A stretch of 64,000 nt of DNA. Origin: an uncultured Poribacteria bacterium. GTDB taxonomy: Bacteria; Poribacteria; WGA-4E; WGA-3G. Location of the stretch: assembly GCA_951828385.1 (NCBI GenBank), contig OX639973.1, positions 3,649,200-3,713,199 on the forward strand, given 5' to 3'. The notes under the pieces were generated by a model. The model was not told the DNA's origin. It was given only the letters and a program-made list of their open reading frames with translations, and searched no databases. The translations under genes were made by a program, and so were the position numbers. Below, one piece after another: positions 18,831-29,597 of this stretch. Every line of letters starts with the position of its first letter. The stretch's first letter is position 1.

Positions 18831-18860
18831 TTGCTTCTTTATGAGACCGTGTGATATTAT
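18831..18860 (+). promoter_or_regulatory. Probable promoter of the DUF488-RecQ operon
   Basis: TTGCTT (18831-18836), an 18-base spacer and TATTAT (18855-18860). The expected start of transcription (about 18867) falls almost on the ATG at 18869, and no Shine-Dalgarno sequence is seen, so the first gene may have a leaderless message. Confidence 0.45.
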
Positions 18861-18868
18861 TATGTACC

Positions 18869-19423
18869 ATGGAAAAACCAACAGCCCGCATTCCAATTTA
18901 CACGATTGGCTATGGAAGTCGATCGATAGCAGAACTCATTGAAGTGCTACACCAGCATAAGATCGCCTACCTTATTGATGTCCGCTCGGCACCCTATTCG
19001 CGTTATAAACCGGAATTTTCTAAAACTTCACTCGCGAATGAACTGGAACGGCACAGTATTCGCTACGTATTCATGGGAGATTCACTTGGTGGCAGACCCC
19101 ATGACGAAACGTGTTACGTTAATGGGAAAGTTGACTACGAAAAAGTCAAAGCCACGGAATTCTACCAGCGCGGAATTGAACGCCTGCATACCGCTTTCAC
19201 GCAGCAACAAAACGTTGTTCTAATGTGTAGTGAGGGAAAACCAGAGGAATGCCACCGCTGCAAATTAATTGGTGCGACGCTCACAACCCAGAATATTCCG
19301 GTCATTCATATCGACGAAAACGGCAAGCAAATGACACAGGAGCAAATTATTGATCGCCTGACAGGAGGGCAATTGTCGATGTTTGGCGAGGATACATTTC
19401 ACTCTCGGAAAAAATACCCCTAA
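18869..19423 (+). CDS. DUF488 family protein (first of two)
   Basis: 184 residues. Family signatures: YTIGYGSRSIAELIEVLHQH, DVRSAPYSRYKPEFSK, GDSLGGRP and the Cys motif LMCSEGKPEECHRCKLI. DUF488 proteins are found widely and often next to DNA-repair or nucleic-acid genes; their biochemical activity is not established. The ATG at 18869 is preferred to the one at 18851 because it directly follows the likely -10 box and matches family starts. It is the first gene of a three-gene operon, 11 bases before the second DUF488 gene. Confidence 0.88.
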   Translation: MEKPTARIPIYTIGYGSRSIAELIEVLHQHKIAYLIDVRSAPYSRYKPEFSKTSLANELERHSIRYVFMGDSLGGRPHDETCYVNGKVDYEKVKATEFYQRGIERLHTAFTQQQNVVLMCSEGKPEECHRCKLIGATLTTQNIPVIHIDENGKQMTQEQIIDRLTGGQLSMFGEDTFHSRKKYP

Positions 19424-19434
19424 CTTGATCCATT

Positions 19435-19926
19435 ATGAAGAAAATCAAAATTGTCACCATCGGTGTATACGGCTTTGACGAAACCGGCTTTTTCGACGCT
19501 TTACGCCAAGCAGGAGTTGATACATTCTGCGATATTCGTAACCGACGCGGTGTACGTGGCGCGACCTACGCATTCGCCAATAGCAAGCGATTGCAAGCGC
19601 GTCTTGCAGAACTTGGTATCCGATACATCTATCGTAAAGACCTTGGACCGACGAAAGCCGTTCGAGAAAAACAGGCAGCCGCGGATAAAGCCATGAAAAC
19701 AGCTAAACGCAAACGCACTGAACTTGGGGAAGCGTTCATTGAAGCCTACCATACTGAATGCCTCGCCGGGTTTGAACCGAAAAGCCTATTAGATGAATTG
19801 AAATCGGATGCGAGAGTTGTAGCACTTTTTTGTGTAGAAACGGCACCAGAGGCGTGCCACCGTTCCTTGGTAGCGGATAAACTGGCGAAAACATTCAATT
19901 TGGAGGTTGAAGACATTTTACCGTGA
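19435..19926 (+). CDS. DUF488 family protein (second, different subtype)
   Basis: 163 residues. Contains TIGVYGFDETGFFDALRQAG, DIRNRRGVRG and the Cys motif LFCVETAPEACHRSLVAD, but lacks the GDSLGG element of its neighbour and has a basic helical insert (AADKAMKTAKRKRTELGEAF). It is therefore a distinct subtype rather than a recent duplicate. Its TGA stop overlaps the GTG start of the RecQ-like gene (GTGA), indicating coupled translation. Function unknown. Confidence 0.87.
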   Translation: MKKIKIVTIGVYGFDETGFFDALRQAGVDTFCDIRNRRGVRGATYAFANSKRLQARLAELGIRYIYRKDLGPTKAVREKQAAADKAMKTAKRKRTELGEAFIEAYHTECLAGFEPKSLLDELKSDARVVALFCVETAPEACHRSLVADKLAKTFNLEVEDILP

Positions 19927-22706
19927 GAGTCTTAATTGTTGCGAAAACCCGAATGGGCGCGGGCGCATGCATTGGCGCGATTACAGAGACAGGCGAAAGC
20001 GTGCGGCTCGTTCCGTATAACGCTGACCCACATGACGGCGCGAACAATGAATATAACGTTGGCGATATTTGGGAAATAACTGCCGAACCCATCCCAGAAA
20101 CTGCACTTATTCCACCGCACAACGAAAACATTATCGTTCGTGAAAAGCACCGTCTCCACGTAACAAAAGATACAAAAAGTTTAGTAAGTGCTATTGAACT
20201 TTTGATGCCGCCGAAAACAGGACATCCGCGTGAACTCTATGAAGGTTTATTGAAAAGTACAAGTAGTGGTTCGCTCTACATCGCTGTGCAGGGTGATATC
20301 CCCTCTTACAGCACTATGTTTTGGAGGCCAGATCAACCGCTTACCCGTGATACAGAAGGAAGGCGAATACGATACCGCTACCCCACCGAAAATGGCGGAT
20401 GCACGCTCACCTTTGTCGGTTTTCAAGAACCGCTTGAGACAATTCCAGCAGGCACGCTCCTGCGTGTGTCCCTGGCACATCGGTGGAGACCAAAAGATCA
20501 GCCCGACGCTGAAGAACGACACTATGTACAGATATCTGGCTGGTTTTCTGAAGAAATAGAACAAGCGCAATCAGAACGTCCGAGAGATCAAGAACAGCCC
20601 TCACTGCCAATTCCGACGCAAACCCCGTTAGATATTCTCACAAACGTTTTCGGACATGAACAGTTTCGTCCATTTCAAGAAACCATCATCAACCACATCC
20701 TAAAAGGGCAGGATGCGTTGATTGTTCTACCCACAGGTGGTGGAAAATCACTCTGTTATCAATTGCCTGCCCTCATGTTTGAGGGCGTAACCGTTGTTGT
20801 TTCACCCCTAATTTCACTCATGCAGGATCAGGTGATGCAACTACAAAATCGTGGTATCCGTGCCGCGTTTCTCAACCATACTGTTGGAAATAAAGAATAC
20901 GTCGCTACGATGCAACAGGTCAGACAGGGTGAAATCAAGCTGCTTTACCTTGCGCCTGAAACGCTCGTTCGCCCCGAAATACTTGTTATGCTTGATGATT
21001 CGGATGTCGCCTGTCTTGCGATTGATGAAGCACACTGCATTTCAGAATGGGGACACGACTTTCGGCAGGAATATCGACAGCTGGTTTCTATTCGCGAGCG
21101 ATTCCAAAACGCTGTTTGCGTCGCCCTAACAGCTACTGCGACCCCACGGGTCCAAAATGACATCAAAAAATTACTCAAATTTGACGAGGGAAACGAGTTT
21201 ATAGGCAGCTTTGATCGAGACAATCTATTCATCGCTGTTGAACCGAAAGTTGAATCGCTGGAACAGACACTCGCGTTTCTTAATAGGCACCGCGGTGAAG
21301 CTGGCATTATCTATTGTCAAACCAAGAAGCAGGTTGAATCGCTCTGTCGTAATTTAATCGCCAGACGCATCTCCGTACATCCTTATCACGCAGATCTCGA
21401 TAACGCAACGCGGCAGCAAAATCAAGAAGCATTTATTAAAGGCGACATCCAAGTGATCATCGCCACAATTGCGTTCGGTATGGGAATCGATAAGGCGGAC
21501 GTGCGTTTTGTTCTACATGCCGGTTTGCCAAAGGAGCCTGAATCTTATTATCAGGAGATCGGACGTAGTGGTCGCGACGGACTCCCAGCAGAGTGTCTCT
21601 TGCTATTCAGTTATGGTGATGTTGACACCATCAATCATTTCATTGATCAAGGTGCAGAATCCGAAAAACACGGACGACAAGAACGATCACAAACACTCGT
21701 TTCATGGGCAACGTCAATAGCGTGTCGTCGAAAAGTATTGTTAGCTTATTTTGGGGAAGAATACGATCAGGAAAATTGTGGGATGTGTGACAACTGCCGT
21801 AAATCAGAAATAGAGCGAGTTGACCTGACGGTACCCGCACAAAAATTTCTCTCGTGTGTCGTCCGAACAGAAGAACTATTCGGGGAAGCGTATATCATTG
21901 ATATATTACGGGAGTCAAAGCGGAAAAAGATTCTTGACAACAGACACAATGAACTCTCCACGTATGGCATCGGTATGGAATACAGCAAGACGCAGTGGAG
22001 ATATTTGGCTCATCAATTCCTCCAACAAGAATTATTAGCACGAGATACTCAACACGGCAGCCTCCGTGTGACTCAGAGCGGATGGAGAGTCCTGAATGGA
22101 GGTGATCAGTTTTGGGGGTTTTCGGTAGAATCGGTACACCACCTCACATCTGAAGTGCTGACTGAATACGATCTTGAACTCTTCAAATTACTTCAGACTG
22201 AACGAGACAGCATCGCTGACGCGGAAGGTGTACACCCTAATGCGGTTTTTCACGATAAAGCACTGCGAGCGATGGCGACCTATTTTCCGACATCCGAGGA
22301 ACCGTTCAGAGTAATGCCAAGTGTGGGACCCGCAAAAACCGAAAAATACGGTGATGTCTTTTTGCCAATCATCCGTGACTATCGCAAGGAACATGGAACG
22401 AAGCCGGTAGCGCGCTCGACTGAAGCATTGAATACTGATCCAGCAACCTCCGCAGAACCGAACGCACACGCTCTGGAACTTTTCGATCAACTTCGCGATA
22501 AACGCAAAACTGTGGCAGATAAAGAAGAGGTAAGGGCATTCCGTATTTTTTCTGACAAGATCTTAAAAGAAATGGTCACCCATTTCCCCCGAACACGAGA
22601 AGCTTTTAGACAAATTCATGGCATTGGTCCCGCGAAAACCGAAAAATACGCCGATGATTTCTTACCGATCATCTGTGCCTACTGCGAAGAACATGGTATT
22701 GACTGA
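19923..22706 (+). CDS. RecQ-type DNA helicase with N-terminal dual-OB-like domain and two HRDC domains
   Basis: 927 residues from a GTG overlapping the previous stop. Residues 1-210 (MRVLIVAKTRMGAGACIGAI, WRPDQPL, HYVQISGW) match a domain otherwise seen as a stand-alone protein beside DUF488 genes, which I take to be a dual-OB domain. The helicase follows: motif 0 FGHEQFRPFQE, Walker A LPTGGGKS (about 271), DEAH box (about 366), TATATPRV, GRSGRDGLP, and the RecQ zinc Cys residues (CRRK..CGMCDNC, about 600-625). Then a winged-helix region and two HRDC repeats, each ending GPAKTEKYxDxFLPII (about 745-825 and 845-925). A 3'-5' helicase role in repair or defence is expected; the fused module suggests a dedicated substrate. 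Confidence 0.92.
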   Translation: MRVLIVAKTRMGAGACIGAITETGESVRLVPYNADPHDGANNEYNVGDIWEITAEPIPETALIPPHNENIIVREKHRLHVTKDTKSLVSAIELLMPPKTGHPRELYEGLLKSTSSGSLYIAVQGDIPSYSTMFWRPDQPLTRDTEGRRIRYRYPTENGGCTLTFVGFQEPLETIPAGTLLRVSLAHRWRPKDQPDAEERHYVQISGWFSEEIEQAQSERPRDQEQPSLPIPTQTPLDILTNVFGHEQFRPFQETIINHILKGQDALIVLPTGGGKSLCYQLPALMFEGVTVVVSPLISLMQDQVMQLQNRGIRAAFLNHTVGNKEYVATMQQVRQGEIKLLYLAPETLVRPEILVMLDDSDVACLAIDEAHCISEWGHDFRQEYRQLVSIRERFQNAVCVALTATATPRVQNDIKKLLKFDEGNEFIGSFDRDNLFIAVEPKVESLEQTLAFLNRHRGEAGIIYCQTKKQVESLCRNLIARRISVHPYHADLDNATRQQNQEAFIKGDIQVIIATIAFGMGIDKADVRFVLHAGLPKEPESYYQEIGRSGRDGLPAECLLLFSYGDVDTINHFIDQGAESEKHGRQERSQTLVSWATSIACRRKVLLAYFGEEYDQENCGMCDNCRKSEIERVDLTVPAQKFLSCVVRTEELFGEAYIIDILRESKRKKILDNRHNELSTYGIGMEYSKTQWRYLAHQFLQQELLARDTQHGSLRVTQSGWRVLNGGDQFWGFSVESVHHLTSEVLTEYDLELFKLLQTERDSIADAEGVHPNAVFHDKALRAMATYFPTSEEPFRVMPSVGPAKTEKYGDVFLPIIRDYRKEHGTKPVARSTEALNTDPATSAEPNAHALELFDQLRDKRKTVADKEEVRAFRIFSDKILKEMVTHFPRTREAFRQIHGIGPAKTEKYADDFLPIICAYCEEHGID

Positions 22707-22712
22707 AGACTT

Positions 22713-24356
22713 TTACTGCATCCCAGAAGCACTTTGCACCTTTGAAGGCAGCTCTTGCATTACAGGAATGACGTAACTCCGAATCGTCAAACCGTCTATC
22801 GTTTCCGTTTCTACGCGTGGCTCCGGCTTTTCTCGATGGTGAAAAACAATGTAGTACCCTCCCGTCACGCCTTCAGCCCTGAGATACGCAACAAGCTGCT
22901 TTTTACCGGCTTGATAGCGACTGTCGCCTCTCCAAATTTTTGTTTCGATGATGTACTTCTGCTGGTTATGGGTGATAATGATATCCATGCTACCGCGTCC
23001 GGTTTGTACTTCAATGTGCATGAAACCACCGATGAGTTTCACAAACTGGTCAAGATATGCAAGCAAAAGATGCCTGCCAACTGATTCTTGTGGTGTATCA
23101 GGGACTTGCAGAATTTTGAACCCTGCGCGGGCAATAAAATCTCGGAAATTATCAAGCAATGCCTCCATATCAATCTGACCGGTGGGTATGAGGTAATCCC
23201 AAAAACTTTCACGAGACTCCTCATGTAAGTACTCATCTTCCAAACCGTTCACGACTGGCTTGAATGCTTGTAAGATGCAATACAGATAAATAGGATTAAC
23301 TATCTCACACATCCCGTCAGCACCTCTGGCAATAACACCATACATGGCAAGTTCACTGATAATTTCACTACGTAGGTTGAAATTGACCCCTTCATCTCGT
23401 GCCATAATTCGCATAAGAACACTTTCAAATCGGCGGTCTCTTCGGATATTAGTAAGCAGGTGTGTGAGATTGACGTTATCTTTCTCAAGGAGTTGGGAGT
23501 GTGCTTTTGAAAAGTGTGGCATAGTAATCGGTTCACTTTTCGGAATATCCAACTCTTCGGTAAGAATCTGTGCGAATCGGTTGACAAGCACAGGTTGCCC
23601 GGCAGTCTGTTTATGGATAGCTGCTATAACCTCTGGGACAAAAGCTTGTCCAACTTCGTCCGTATATTGCCCAAGCAGCTCGTGTACTTGTTCGTGGGTA
23701 AAGTTGGGCAAATGGAACTCGTCTTGGATATTGAAGGGGGAAATAGATCGGTCATAGTTGAGTTGCGCAATACTTTTGACACCGATGATGCCAACGCTGT
23801 GAGGACATCGCGGCTTGCCAGAAATATAGATATGACGGAGCGTATGCAGAAAATCACTCAGTGCAACCTGCGGGATACCATCAAATTCATCAATGACGAA
23901 GACAACCTGCTGCCCATCATATTCAGCGTCCAGAAAACGTGCAAACTGTTTAAAAAATCTCATCATCGAAAGATGATCGGTTAAGGTTGTCCCTCCCAAA
24001 AATTCGCGTAAAGCCTCAGAGGGGACACATCCACGTCGTTGGAAAACGGCTTCTATATCTTCGCGCATCTGTTCATAGAGATGACCATAGAAAGTAACTA
24101 AGTCAAGGTTTTTATAAACATCAAAGTTTAGTTGAATCGGAAAATAGCCTATAGTCTGCCCAACTGACGCTGAATCCGCTACCAATGCTGTTAAGGCATC
24201 TTGAAAGAAAGTCGTTTTGCCCGTTTGGCGGGGTGCGAAGAGCACAACATAGCGTCCCTCGTCAACGCGTTTGATGTAATCGGCGATCTCATCAGAACGT
24301 GAAACAACGTAGTGCTCTTGCGCATTGACGGGACCTTGTGTCCAAAAACGTCTCAT
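22713..24356 (-). CDS. AAA ATPase fused to a PD-(D/E)XK nuclease domain
   Basis: 547 residues. The N-terminal ATPase has Walker A APRQTGKTT (about residue 42) and Walker B VVFVIDEFDG (about 148), in the style of AAA-like/ATPase_2 proteins. After a winged-helix-like middle, the C-terminus carries a restriction-type nuclease core: MHIEVQTGRGSMDIIITHN then YIIETKIW (Asp and E-x-K, about 462-476). Related proteins are frequent in mobile and host-conflict contexts, function mostly unknown. It faces the RecQ gene with a 6-base gap, so it may belong to the same defence or repair locus (inference). GGAGG precedes the start. Confidence 0.85.
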   Translation of the reverse strand: MRRFWTQGPVNAQEHYVVSRSDEIADYIKRVDEGRYVVLFAPRQTGKTTFFQDALTALVADSASVGQTIGYFPIQLNFDVYKNLDLVTFYGHLYEQMREDIEAVFQRRGCVPSEALREFLGGTTLTDHLSMMRFFKQFARFLDAEYDGQQVVFVIDEFDGIPQVALSDFLHTLRHIYISGKPRCPHSVGIIGVKSIAQLNYDRSISPFNIQDEFHLPNFTHEQVHELLGQYTDEVGQAFVPEVIAAIHKQTAGQPVLVNRFAQILTEELDIPKSEPITMPHFSKAHSQLLEKDNVNLTHLLTNIRRDRRFESVLMRIMARDEGVNFNLRSEIISELAMYGVIARGADGMCEIVNPIYLYCILQAFKPVVNGLEDEYLHEESRESFWDYLIPTGQIDMEALLDNFRDFIARAGFKILQVPDTPQESVGRHLLLAYLDQFVKLIGGFMHIEVQTGRGSMDIIITHNQQKYIIETKIWRGDSRYQAGKKQLVAYLRAEGVTGGYYIVFHHREKPEPRVETETIDGLTIRSYVIPVMQELPSKVQSASGMQ

Positions 24357-28297: not shown

Positions 28298-28317
28298 CCC
28301 AAGCCTAAAGAGTTGGG
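28298..28317 (-). ncRNA. Right-end hairpin, putative 3' part of the TnpB guide RNA (omega RNA)
   Basis: CCCAA (28298-28302) pairs with TTGGG (28313-28317) and the loop contains the tnpB stop. In IS605-type elements the guide RNA starts within the 3' end of tnpB, runs through the right-end hairpin and continues into flanking DNA, which supplies the guide; here the guide would be about 28270-28289 on the minus strand. The RNA itself is inferred from this known architecture. Confidence 0.4.
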
Positions 28318-29597
28318 CTTGTCATCGCGTCAAACAACAAAAGTTGTGTTGCGTTCTGCAAGCCTTTGTCTCCTGCTTCGTTCTTGTTTCTCGCTTCATA
28401 GAGGGTAGTAACCCACCGCTCTCCACGAAGGGCAGCTGCTGCCCTAAGAAGTATATTTATCGCAGCGTTGTGGTCTCGGTCTAAAACCGTGCCACAAAAC
28501 TGACAGCTAAAAGTTCGGATCGCCAGCGAAAGTTTCTTTGCCGACTTCTGACCACAGCAAGAACATGTTTGCGAGGTATGCTTGGGGTCAACTTGATGGA
28601 AGTGCAGACCGTCTCTTTCGGCTATATCCGCACACCACGTAAAGAAGGTTGCCCAAGACGCATCGCTGATACTCTTGCTGAGGTGTTGGTTCTTTACCAT
28701 GTTCGAGGTATTTAGATTTTCGGCGACTAACACATTATTTTTCTCATGATGGTAGAGTTTGTAAACTATTTTACCGATAAAGTCTTTGCGTCTGTTGACT
28801 GTTCGCTCGTGGTGTAAAGCAAGTTTGTGCTGTTGTTTCTTTCTACGGTGGCTACCTTTTTTCTTACGAGACAGGTCTTTAGAGTGTTTCCGGGTCAGAC
28901 CTTCTGCTTGGCGATACCAGCGCGGGTTGTCCTCTTTTTCACCATCAGAAGTTGTGAGATAGTGCGTTGTGCCGACATCAACAGCAATCGCATCAGTCGG
29001 TTCAACTTTCGGTGTATCGGGCAGTTCACAGGAGATATGAGCATACCAGCCACTCGCTTTTTTTACCAGCGACACTTCTTTCGGATCGCCTTGTAACGGG
29101 CGGTGCATGTATATCTTGACTTCACCTAAACCCGGCACTTTGAGTCGGTCGTGTTTCCAGGCTGTTTCACGGATAGGAGTCTGGCGAACTTTTATGACCT
29201 TTCTGTCTGTGTCTTTCGTCTTTCGCTGAACAACTTTCGGGTATTTGCGAAGTTTCCACGACATAGACCTAATCCGTTTACGGTGTCTTGGATACCCCTT
29301 TTTCGCAGCACCTTCTTCGCACCGTTTATAGAAACCGTCATAAGCTTTGTCCGTGCGTTCCAAAATACACACTTGCATATCTTGGGGCACTTCACGGAAG
29401 TCGGCATATTTTTTACGCGCAACCGTCAACTTCTGTTGTTGGGCGTAGCAAGACACTTTTTCACCTGCCGTCTCCCACGCAACCTTGCGGTCATGGCGTG
29501 CGGAATTCTGAAGTTCACAAAGGTTGTCTAACCACTTTAATAATGTCGTTTCCTGTGTTTGCGTAGGATACACAGGGTATCTAAAGGTTAAATTCAT
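28305..29597 (-). CDS. tnpB: TnpB RNA-guided nuclease (IS605 OrfB family)
   Basis: 430 residues and apparently intact. The split RuvC site is complete: Asp in AIAVDVGTTH (about 205), Glu in VLVAENLN (about 292) and Asp in DRDHNAAINILL (about 375). The zinc ribbon has CSCCG and CQFCG (about 345-370). The N-terminal part (PVYPTQTQETTLLKWLDNLC) is typical. TnpB proteins are the ancestors of Cas12 and cut DNA guided by an RNA from the element end. The gene lies alone between a sugar-acid enolase-type gene and intergenic repeats. The first 28 residues follow the family alignment from the ATG at 29597. Confidence 0.93.
   Translation of the reverse strand: MNLTFRYPVYPTQTQETTLLKWLDNLCELQNSARHDRKVAWETAGEKVSCYAQQQKLTVARKKYADFREVPQDMQVCILERTDKAYDGFYKRCEEGAAKKGYPRHRKRIRSMSWKLRKYPKVVQRKTKDTDRKVIKVRQTPIRETAWKHDRLKVPGLGEVKIYMHRPLQGDPKEVSLVKKASGWYAHISCELPDTPKVEPTDAIAVDVGTTHYLTTSDGEKEDNPRWYRQAEGLTRKHSKDLSRKKKGSHRRKKQQHKLALHHERTVNRRKDFIGKIVYKLYHHEKNNVLVAENLNTSNMVKNQHLSKSISDASWATFFTWCADIAERDGLHFHQVDPKHTSQTCSCCGQKSAKKLSLAIRTFSCQFCGTVLDRDHNAAINILLRAAAALRGERWVTTLYEARNKNEAGDKGLQNATQLLLFDAMTSPTL

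Follow-up and report, generated by a model that had tools for sequence, protein, structure and literature searches.

Our analysis describes an operon from an uncultured, sponge-associated member of the Poribacteria, in which two proteins of the DUF488 family (D1 and D2) are encoded together with a RecQ helicase that carries a dual OB domain (DuOB) at its N-terminus (R). DUF488 is a widespread enzyme family whose reaction is without assignment. Judged by profile matches, the operon is a diverged, RecQ-fused sister variant of PDC-M45, a catalogued defence candidate; the feature that appears to be new here is a conserved QxxLF motif in the tail of D1, of the type predicted to bind the beta sliding clamp, with a parallel motif in the sister candidate PDC-M19B. 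Also new here are the likeness of the DuOB model to HIN-200 domains, the other defence genes found at the chromosomal site where D2-R is missing, and the swapping of R alleles between lineages. We propose that this variant acts as a clamp-recruited, DNA-end-processing anti-phage system, a reading on which we are evenly divided, and we regard a defence role of some kind, taking all defence-type readings together, as more probable than not.

The operon lies on the forward strand of the window, the stretch of 64,000 nucleotides that was analysed, in a genome that consists of a single 6.66-Mb contig. D1 (18869..19423; best start the ATG at 18869, stop at 19423) is a PDC-M45B-like DUF488 protein with a predicted rhodanese-phosphatase fold (PF04343, 6.6e-22; AF2 pLDDT 89). 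Reading of the open frames places the second DUF488 protein, D2 (19435..19926; PF04343, 3.5e-15; DUF488-N3a, 27.2 bits), 11 bases downstream, and D2 overlaps R (19923..22706; 927 aa, GTG start at 19923) by the four bases GTGA. According to Pfam, R is composed of DuOB, DEAD/Helicase_C, RecQ_Zn_bind, RQC and two HRDC domains, in that order: DuOB spans 19923..20543 (PF22557, 4e-27, residues 1-207; AF2 pLDDT 92), the helicase core and Zn-binding region 20631..21974 (TIGR00614, 512.9 bits), the RQC domain 21810..22106 (PF09382, 3.5e-29), and the HRDC domains 22160..22673 (PF00570 in two stretches, the second at about 22473-22673). The original prediction of three tightly packed genes, of a C-x-E-x-x-P-E-x-CHR motif in each of two DUF488 proteins, and of a RecQ that is extended at its N-terminus by a domain of about 210 residues and bears two HRDC domains agrees with these results in each part; the motifs are the active-site loops CSEGKPEECHR of D1 and CVETAPEACHR of D2.

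R shares the complete RecQ architecture of helicase, Zn, RQC and HRDC regions and scores above the RecQ equivalog cut-off (TIGR01389, 726 bits against 640), whereas its DuOB N-terminus, its operonic DUF488 pair and the exchange of its alleles set it apart from RecQ helicases. The equivalog score favours the main rival to our proposal, a module for replication-linked repair, in which DuOB-RecQ would be the full-length RecQ of the lineage and a clamp-recruited DUF488 pair would clean blocked DNA ends where forks have stalled, with no specific anti-phage role. We take this possibility seriously and consider it unlikely on balance; the occurrence of another RecQ-family helicase in the genome speaks against it. 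That second gene (G000:C1:5068175-5069326; L054, L108) lies in a 609-aa frame and matches TIGR00614 with 362.7 bits. The operon is not a Dpd system, because the PADLOC matches of R to DpdF are those of a generic RecQ and the score against the NCBIfam DpdF equivalog, 196.6, falls below the cut-off of 550.

The best 17 PDB matches (E <= 1e-3) of the DuOB model in Foldseek are all HIN-200 proteins (MNDA, p202, p204, p205 and IFI16; E 6.7e-5 to 1e-3), followed by Teb1, BRCA2 and POT1. The TM-scores against HIN-200 are low (0.3-0.4), a likeness at the level of the fold, and in VIA-align the first OB fold is as near to AspRS, RPA and SSB as to HIN-200 (Z about 7). A sequence search against solved structures gave no convincing match to DuOB. 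The models support a tandem-OB domain of nucleic-acid-binding type, in keeping with the predicted role of the N-terminal domain as a substrate reader, and homology with HIN-200 is not claimed: DuOB has tandem OB folds in common with AIM2, IFI16 and MNDA, and differs from them in being bacterial, in being fused to RecQ and, in the search of solved structures, in giving no sequence match to them. As a named Pfam family only, DuOB is not a known accessory domain with a settled function. We count the HIN-like model in favour of the anti-phage reading, and the restriction of the match to the fold level against it.

DuOB is present, in one copy each, in 47 of 85 Poribacteria genomes, and D1 and D2 lie just upstream of it in all 47, that is, in the window and in each of the 46 further loci inspected. 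The D1-D2-R arrangement is thus far beyond chance, and that the unit exists and is conserved is well established. Two of these loci depart in detail: L107 has a separate RecQ gene next to a much diverged D2 and DuOB, and L104 has DuOB and RecQ split over two frames. The order D1-D2-DuOB also occurs in 19 of 21 loci outside the Poribacteria, in the Rhodothermota, Acidobacteriota, Planctomycetota, Verrucomicrobiota, Chloroflexota, Latescibacterota, Cyanobacteriota, Alphaproteobacteria and a deltaproteobacterium, with at least ten phyla in all showing this order, so that conservation beyond this genome, on which the prediction depended, was found. In the remaining two loci (L139 and L146) no DUF488 pair adjoins DuOB-RecQ. 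RecQ is fused to DuOB in 14 of the 21 loci, and DuOB stands alone in 7. Since 19 of these loci have the core and the RecQ fusion is found in only 14, the core of the system is D1-D2-DuOB, and RecQ is an optional attached motor. The constant gene order counts for the anti-phage reading. The single copy per genome would suit a repair module, against which stand the core without RecQ in 7 of 21 outside loci and the lack of the operon in 38 of the 85 phylum genomes, near-complete ones of the same genus among them.

PDC-M45, a PADLOC candidate, combines the same three component families in one operon (M45A, dual OB; M45B and M45C, DUF488). D1 matches PDC-M45B with 1.8e-54 and D2 matches PDC-M45C weakly, with 1.3e-11 against 4.7e-73 for canonical members; the N-terminal 226 aa of R match no PADLOC model, those of M45A included, up to an E of 1. 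Pfam DuOB matches this region of R as well as canonical M45A. The operon is therefore called a variant rather than a member of PDC-M45, for want of an M45A match, though the Pfam family is common to both. Unlike canonical PDC-M45, which has the order M45A(DuOB)-M45B-M45C on Agrobacterium, Rhodovastum and Allochromatium plasmids, the window has D1-D2-DuOB, with a DuOB that has diverged beyond the reach of the M45A models and is fused to RecQ. The literature searched yielded nothing relevant linking DUF488 with RecQ or DuOB, and no report of a phage-protection test of PDC-M45. The kind of system is thus already catalogued, through PDC-M45 and DuOB, and it is the RecQ-fused variant that is distinct here.

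A second PADLOC candidate, PDC-M19, comprises a DUF488 protein, fused to a SocA/Panacea-like domain, and a dual-OB-like protein, and so has in common with the operon a DUF488 domain and an OB-type partner (profile match over the first 56 columns, E 2.5e-5). It fills the same chromosomal site in relatives and also bears QxxLF. It differs in having one DUF488 domain and no helicase, and in carrying the clamp-type motif in its OB protein, whereas the motif of the window lies in the DUF488 protein D1. PDC-M19 was seen at L179, L180, L183 and L184 and at the plasmid loci L211-L214, with DUF488 fused or separate, next to the dual-OB-like protein. The antitoxin-type domain of PDC-M19A, a weak match of 18 bits below the cut-off, could hint at an abortive or toxin-antitoxin module, in which the DUF488 proteins would be toxic modifiers of nucleotides or nucleic-acid ends, restrained by R until infection; the AbiE-like genes recognized by eye next to the unpaired DuOB-RecQ of L139 and L146 point the same way. 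We think such a module improbable: D1 is kept alone in many genomes, which argues against free toxicity, and D1 and D2 are co-conserved precisely with R and not with an antitoxin.

Most genomes of the genus have the operon at one site, in the order SpoIIE-GNAT-[D1 D2 R]-AAA-miaA-mnmA. This fixed position next to miaA-mnmA would fit a repair module, yet where D2 and R are missing the site is reused by other defence systems: a CBASS cyclase with a 4TM effector (L172; L177 and L183 have similar genes), type I methylase and specificity genes (L173, L180), a REase-TIR protein with a short pAgo (SPARTA-like) and HsdS (L170), FokI with D12 methylases (L181, L178), or PDC-M19 (L179, L180, L183). The AAA gene stands alone at the site after D1 in L182, and in L192, a locus of the same genus without D1; L167 retains a decayed remnant of D2. 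At least 19 of 40 cargo ORFs at the site match defence models at 1e-20; a control set of 14 random 10-kb stretches with 105 ORFs gave scattered single matches, among 25 of the 46 families listed, and generic families (methylases, TnpB-like Cas12f) add matches to cargo and control alike. The stretch between GNAT/D1 and AAA-miaA (L167-L183, L187, L192, L198) is a defence hotspot with alternative cargo, and the sharing of the site with CBASS, short pAgo, FokI, type I restriction-modification and PDC-M19 counts for the anti-phage reading. A TnpB-like ORF was also recognized from sequence in the window itself, at 28305-29597 on the minus strand.

The AAA gene of this site (22713..24356, minus strand), which converges on R, had been predicted to encode an AAA ATPase fused to a PD-(D/E)XK nuclease and to belong to the set. 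Its 547-aa product (24356-22713) is a genuine AAA_35/AAA_16 protein; the putative nuclease tail gives sub-threshold matches only (NERD 17.8 bits, PDDEXK_9 15.8 bits), with D..ExK residues visible. About 20 dispersed AAA_35 paralogs, 59-69% identical, occur in the genome (L034-L052 and window 22713-24356). Several are shortened or have stop codons, and the family is possibly mobile or domesticated. In a tree read without the own-genome paralogs L036, L037, L043 and L045, which form an artefactual long clade, probably through translation of minus-strand loci on the wrong strand, the AAA genes of the miaA site group together with support 100, those of six genomes lacking D2-R among them. Since the site clade persists without the operon and the protein is one of some 20 paralogs, it belongs to the chromosomal site and was ruled out as a fourth component of the operon.

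Copies on mobile DNA extend the defence setting. The Rhodothermus copy, on a plasmid, adjoins cas1-cas2 and Csm6, and the Allochromatium plasmid copy lies between Cas1/Csx16 and Csm6 (the Cas1/Csm6-adjacent homologues are L109 and L209); the Agrobacterium plasmid copy (L207) adjoins CBASS genes and an integrase. A direct search for DuOB in phage records and viral contigs gave no match; a search based on D1 found D1-D2-DuOB in the viral contigs L229 and L230. Plasmid and viral carriage next to CRISPR and CBASS counts for the anti-phage reading and against a repair module. It would also accommodate a module for mobile-DNA maintenance, anti-restriction or competition between elements, later fixed in the Poribacteria, which we regard as very improbable given its long-term chromosomal residence there and its alternation at the same site with bona fide defence genes. 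Between repair and defence, the alternatives raised by the original prediction, the site cargo and these plasmid copies point to defence. Its reading of the set as a whole stands as to the enzymes, the DNA-binding-type domain and the defence setting, and falls as to the AAA-nuclease; a related candidate, PDC-M45, is already listed by PADLOC.

Pairwise identities at 27 loci of the miaA site were compared with those of miaA. D1 and D2 track miaA (r 0.76 and 0.82), DuOB does so less (0.48) and RecQ hardly (0.30). A diverged RecQ allele is monophyletic in the RecQ tree (100); to map it onto the miaA tree takes five changes, of which starred branches force at least three, and five are likewise needed on the trees of D1 and D2. 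R has thus been swapped among lineages without a change of site, and D1 and D2 have descended with the species. Vertical inheritance of D1 and D2 at a fixed site is what a housekeeping module might show, and weighs for repair and against the anti-phage reading; the swapping of R weighs the other way. Swapping suits a part that meets a changing opponent, and recombination alone is no proof of defence.

A Q-x-x-[LMI]-F motif is present in the tail of D1, beyond the DUF488 domain, in 56 of 56 homologues. It reads QLSMF in the window (19370..19384, plus strand) and QLDLF, QLSLF, QPSLF and the like elsewhere; in some homologues position 4 is M or I. A stricter form occurs in 51 of the 56 and in 1.4% of shuffled tails; none of 56 D2 and none of 58 R proteins has a QxxLF-type motif. 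The consensus for binding the beta clamp is QL[S/D]LF, in its general form QxxLF, and such motifs are typical of repair proteins (PMC12309361), which a repair module would share. Stand-alone copies of D1 mostly retain QxxLF, and in L169 and L172 the protein ends almost directly after it. The motif is found in the viral-contig operons (QGALF in L229, QYSMF in L230), in a viral contig in which D1 and D2 are naturally fused (L235:5971-7104, with QLHLF between the two DUF488 domains), and in all nine copies of the PDC-M19B OB protein looked at. We infer that D1 docks on DnaN through this tail; the residues may instead have a structural role in D1. The motif in D1, in PDC-M19B and in the L235 fusion counts for the anti-phage reading, and its absence from the D1 proteins of canonical PDC-M45 (L207-L209), like the frequent occurrence of D1 without D2 and R, counts against it. 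Because that class has no conserved QxxLF, clamp docking is not essential to all relatives.

In alignments of 57 sequences each, 18 of them from outside the Poribacteria, D1 conserves C117, E119, P122, C125-H126-R127 and D34-V-R36 (residue 1 being the proline encoded at 18878; ATG-based numbers are higher by 3), and D2 conserves C133, E135 and C141-H142-R143. D2 has conserved basic residues of its own (R35, R37, R38, R41, R77, K91, R92 and R94), of which R35, R37, R38, R41, R77 and R94 are invariant. As C, E and CHR are invariant in both proteins across phyla, the pair is very likely enzymatic, as had been suggested, and by the same residues neither protein appears to be a dead copy. The match to PF04343 and the conserved cysteine loop place both in the DUF488/rhodanese-phosphatase superfamily. 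The neighbours of the D1 model are consistent with this: tetrapyrrole/diphthine methylases and PTP/dual-specificity phosphatases in Foldseek (E 2e-3 and above), and Z 8-9.5 in VIA (KAP, for instance, with Z 8.9 and 3.8 A over 132 residues). No convincing sequence match of D1 or D2 to solved structures was found. Burroughs, Nicastro and Aravind reportedly placed DUF488 in 2023 in a RapZ-C-DUF488-DUF4326 clade, for part of which DNA-end-processing conflict systems were predicted. The operon would share with that clade a cysteine-dependent sugar/phosphate chemistry; the evidence from clamp motif, hotspot and allele swapping comes from the present analysis. Its sister family DUF4326 has been suggested to act on terminal phosphates that are joined to ribose (PMC9503650). 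A D1-type DUF488 fused to a NERD nuclease and a UvrD-like helicase, with loss of the tail motif (L176:8215-10638, 807 aa), offers independent support for D1 acting on DNA alongside a helicase. We count this fusion, the invariant catalytic residues and the phosphatase-like fold of the D1 model for the anti-phage reading.

These data suggest a model for the anti-phage operon. The QxxLF tail would anchor D1 to the beta sliding clamp and so bring the complex to replicating DNA, that of a phage included; the HIN-like tandem OB domain of R would bind the DNA, and the RecQ motor of R would open forks, gaps or ends. D1 and D2 could then act in a cysteine-dependent manner on the exposed DNA end, by removal or transfer of the terminal phosphate or by attack on the end sugar, and this would block replication or repair of the invader. 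As a specific mechanism, clamp docking with DNA-end chemistry is a supported hypothesis.

For the DUF488 family, the conserved motif of clamp-docking type provides a predicted place of action, and two mutable cysteine sites together with the Q and F of the motif make its function directly testable. More tentatively, we can picture a clamp-guided immune machine, in which a DUF488 enzyme rides the clamp to phage forks, the HIN-like DuOB/RecQ protein acts as the reader and opens the DNA, and the two cysteine enzymes cap or strip DNA ends by a hitherto unknown defence chemistry, with PDC-M19 as an independent clamp-docked version. If true, this would extend the known modes of bacterial immunity by DNA-end chemistry and by recruitment to the sliding clamp, and would provide a bacterial reader with the fold of the AIM2 and IFI16 DNA sensors.
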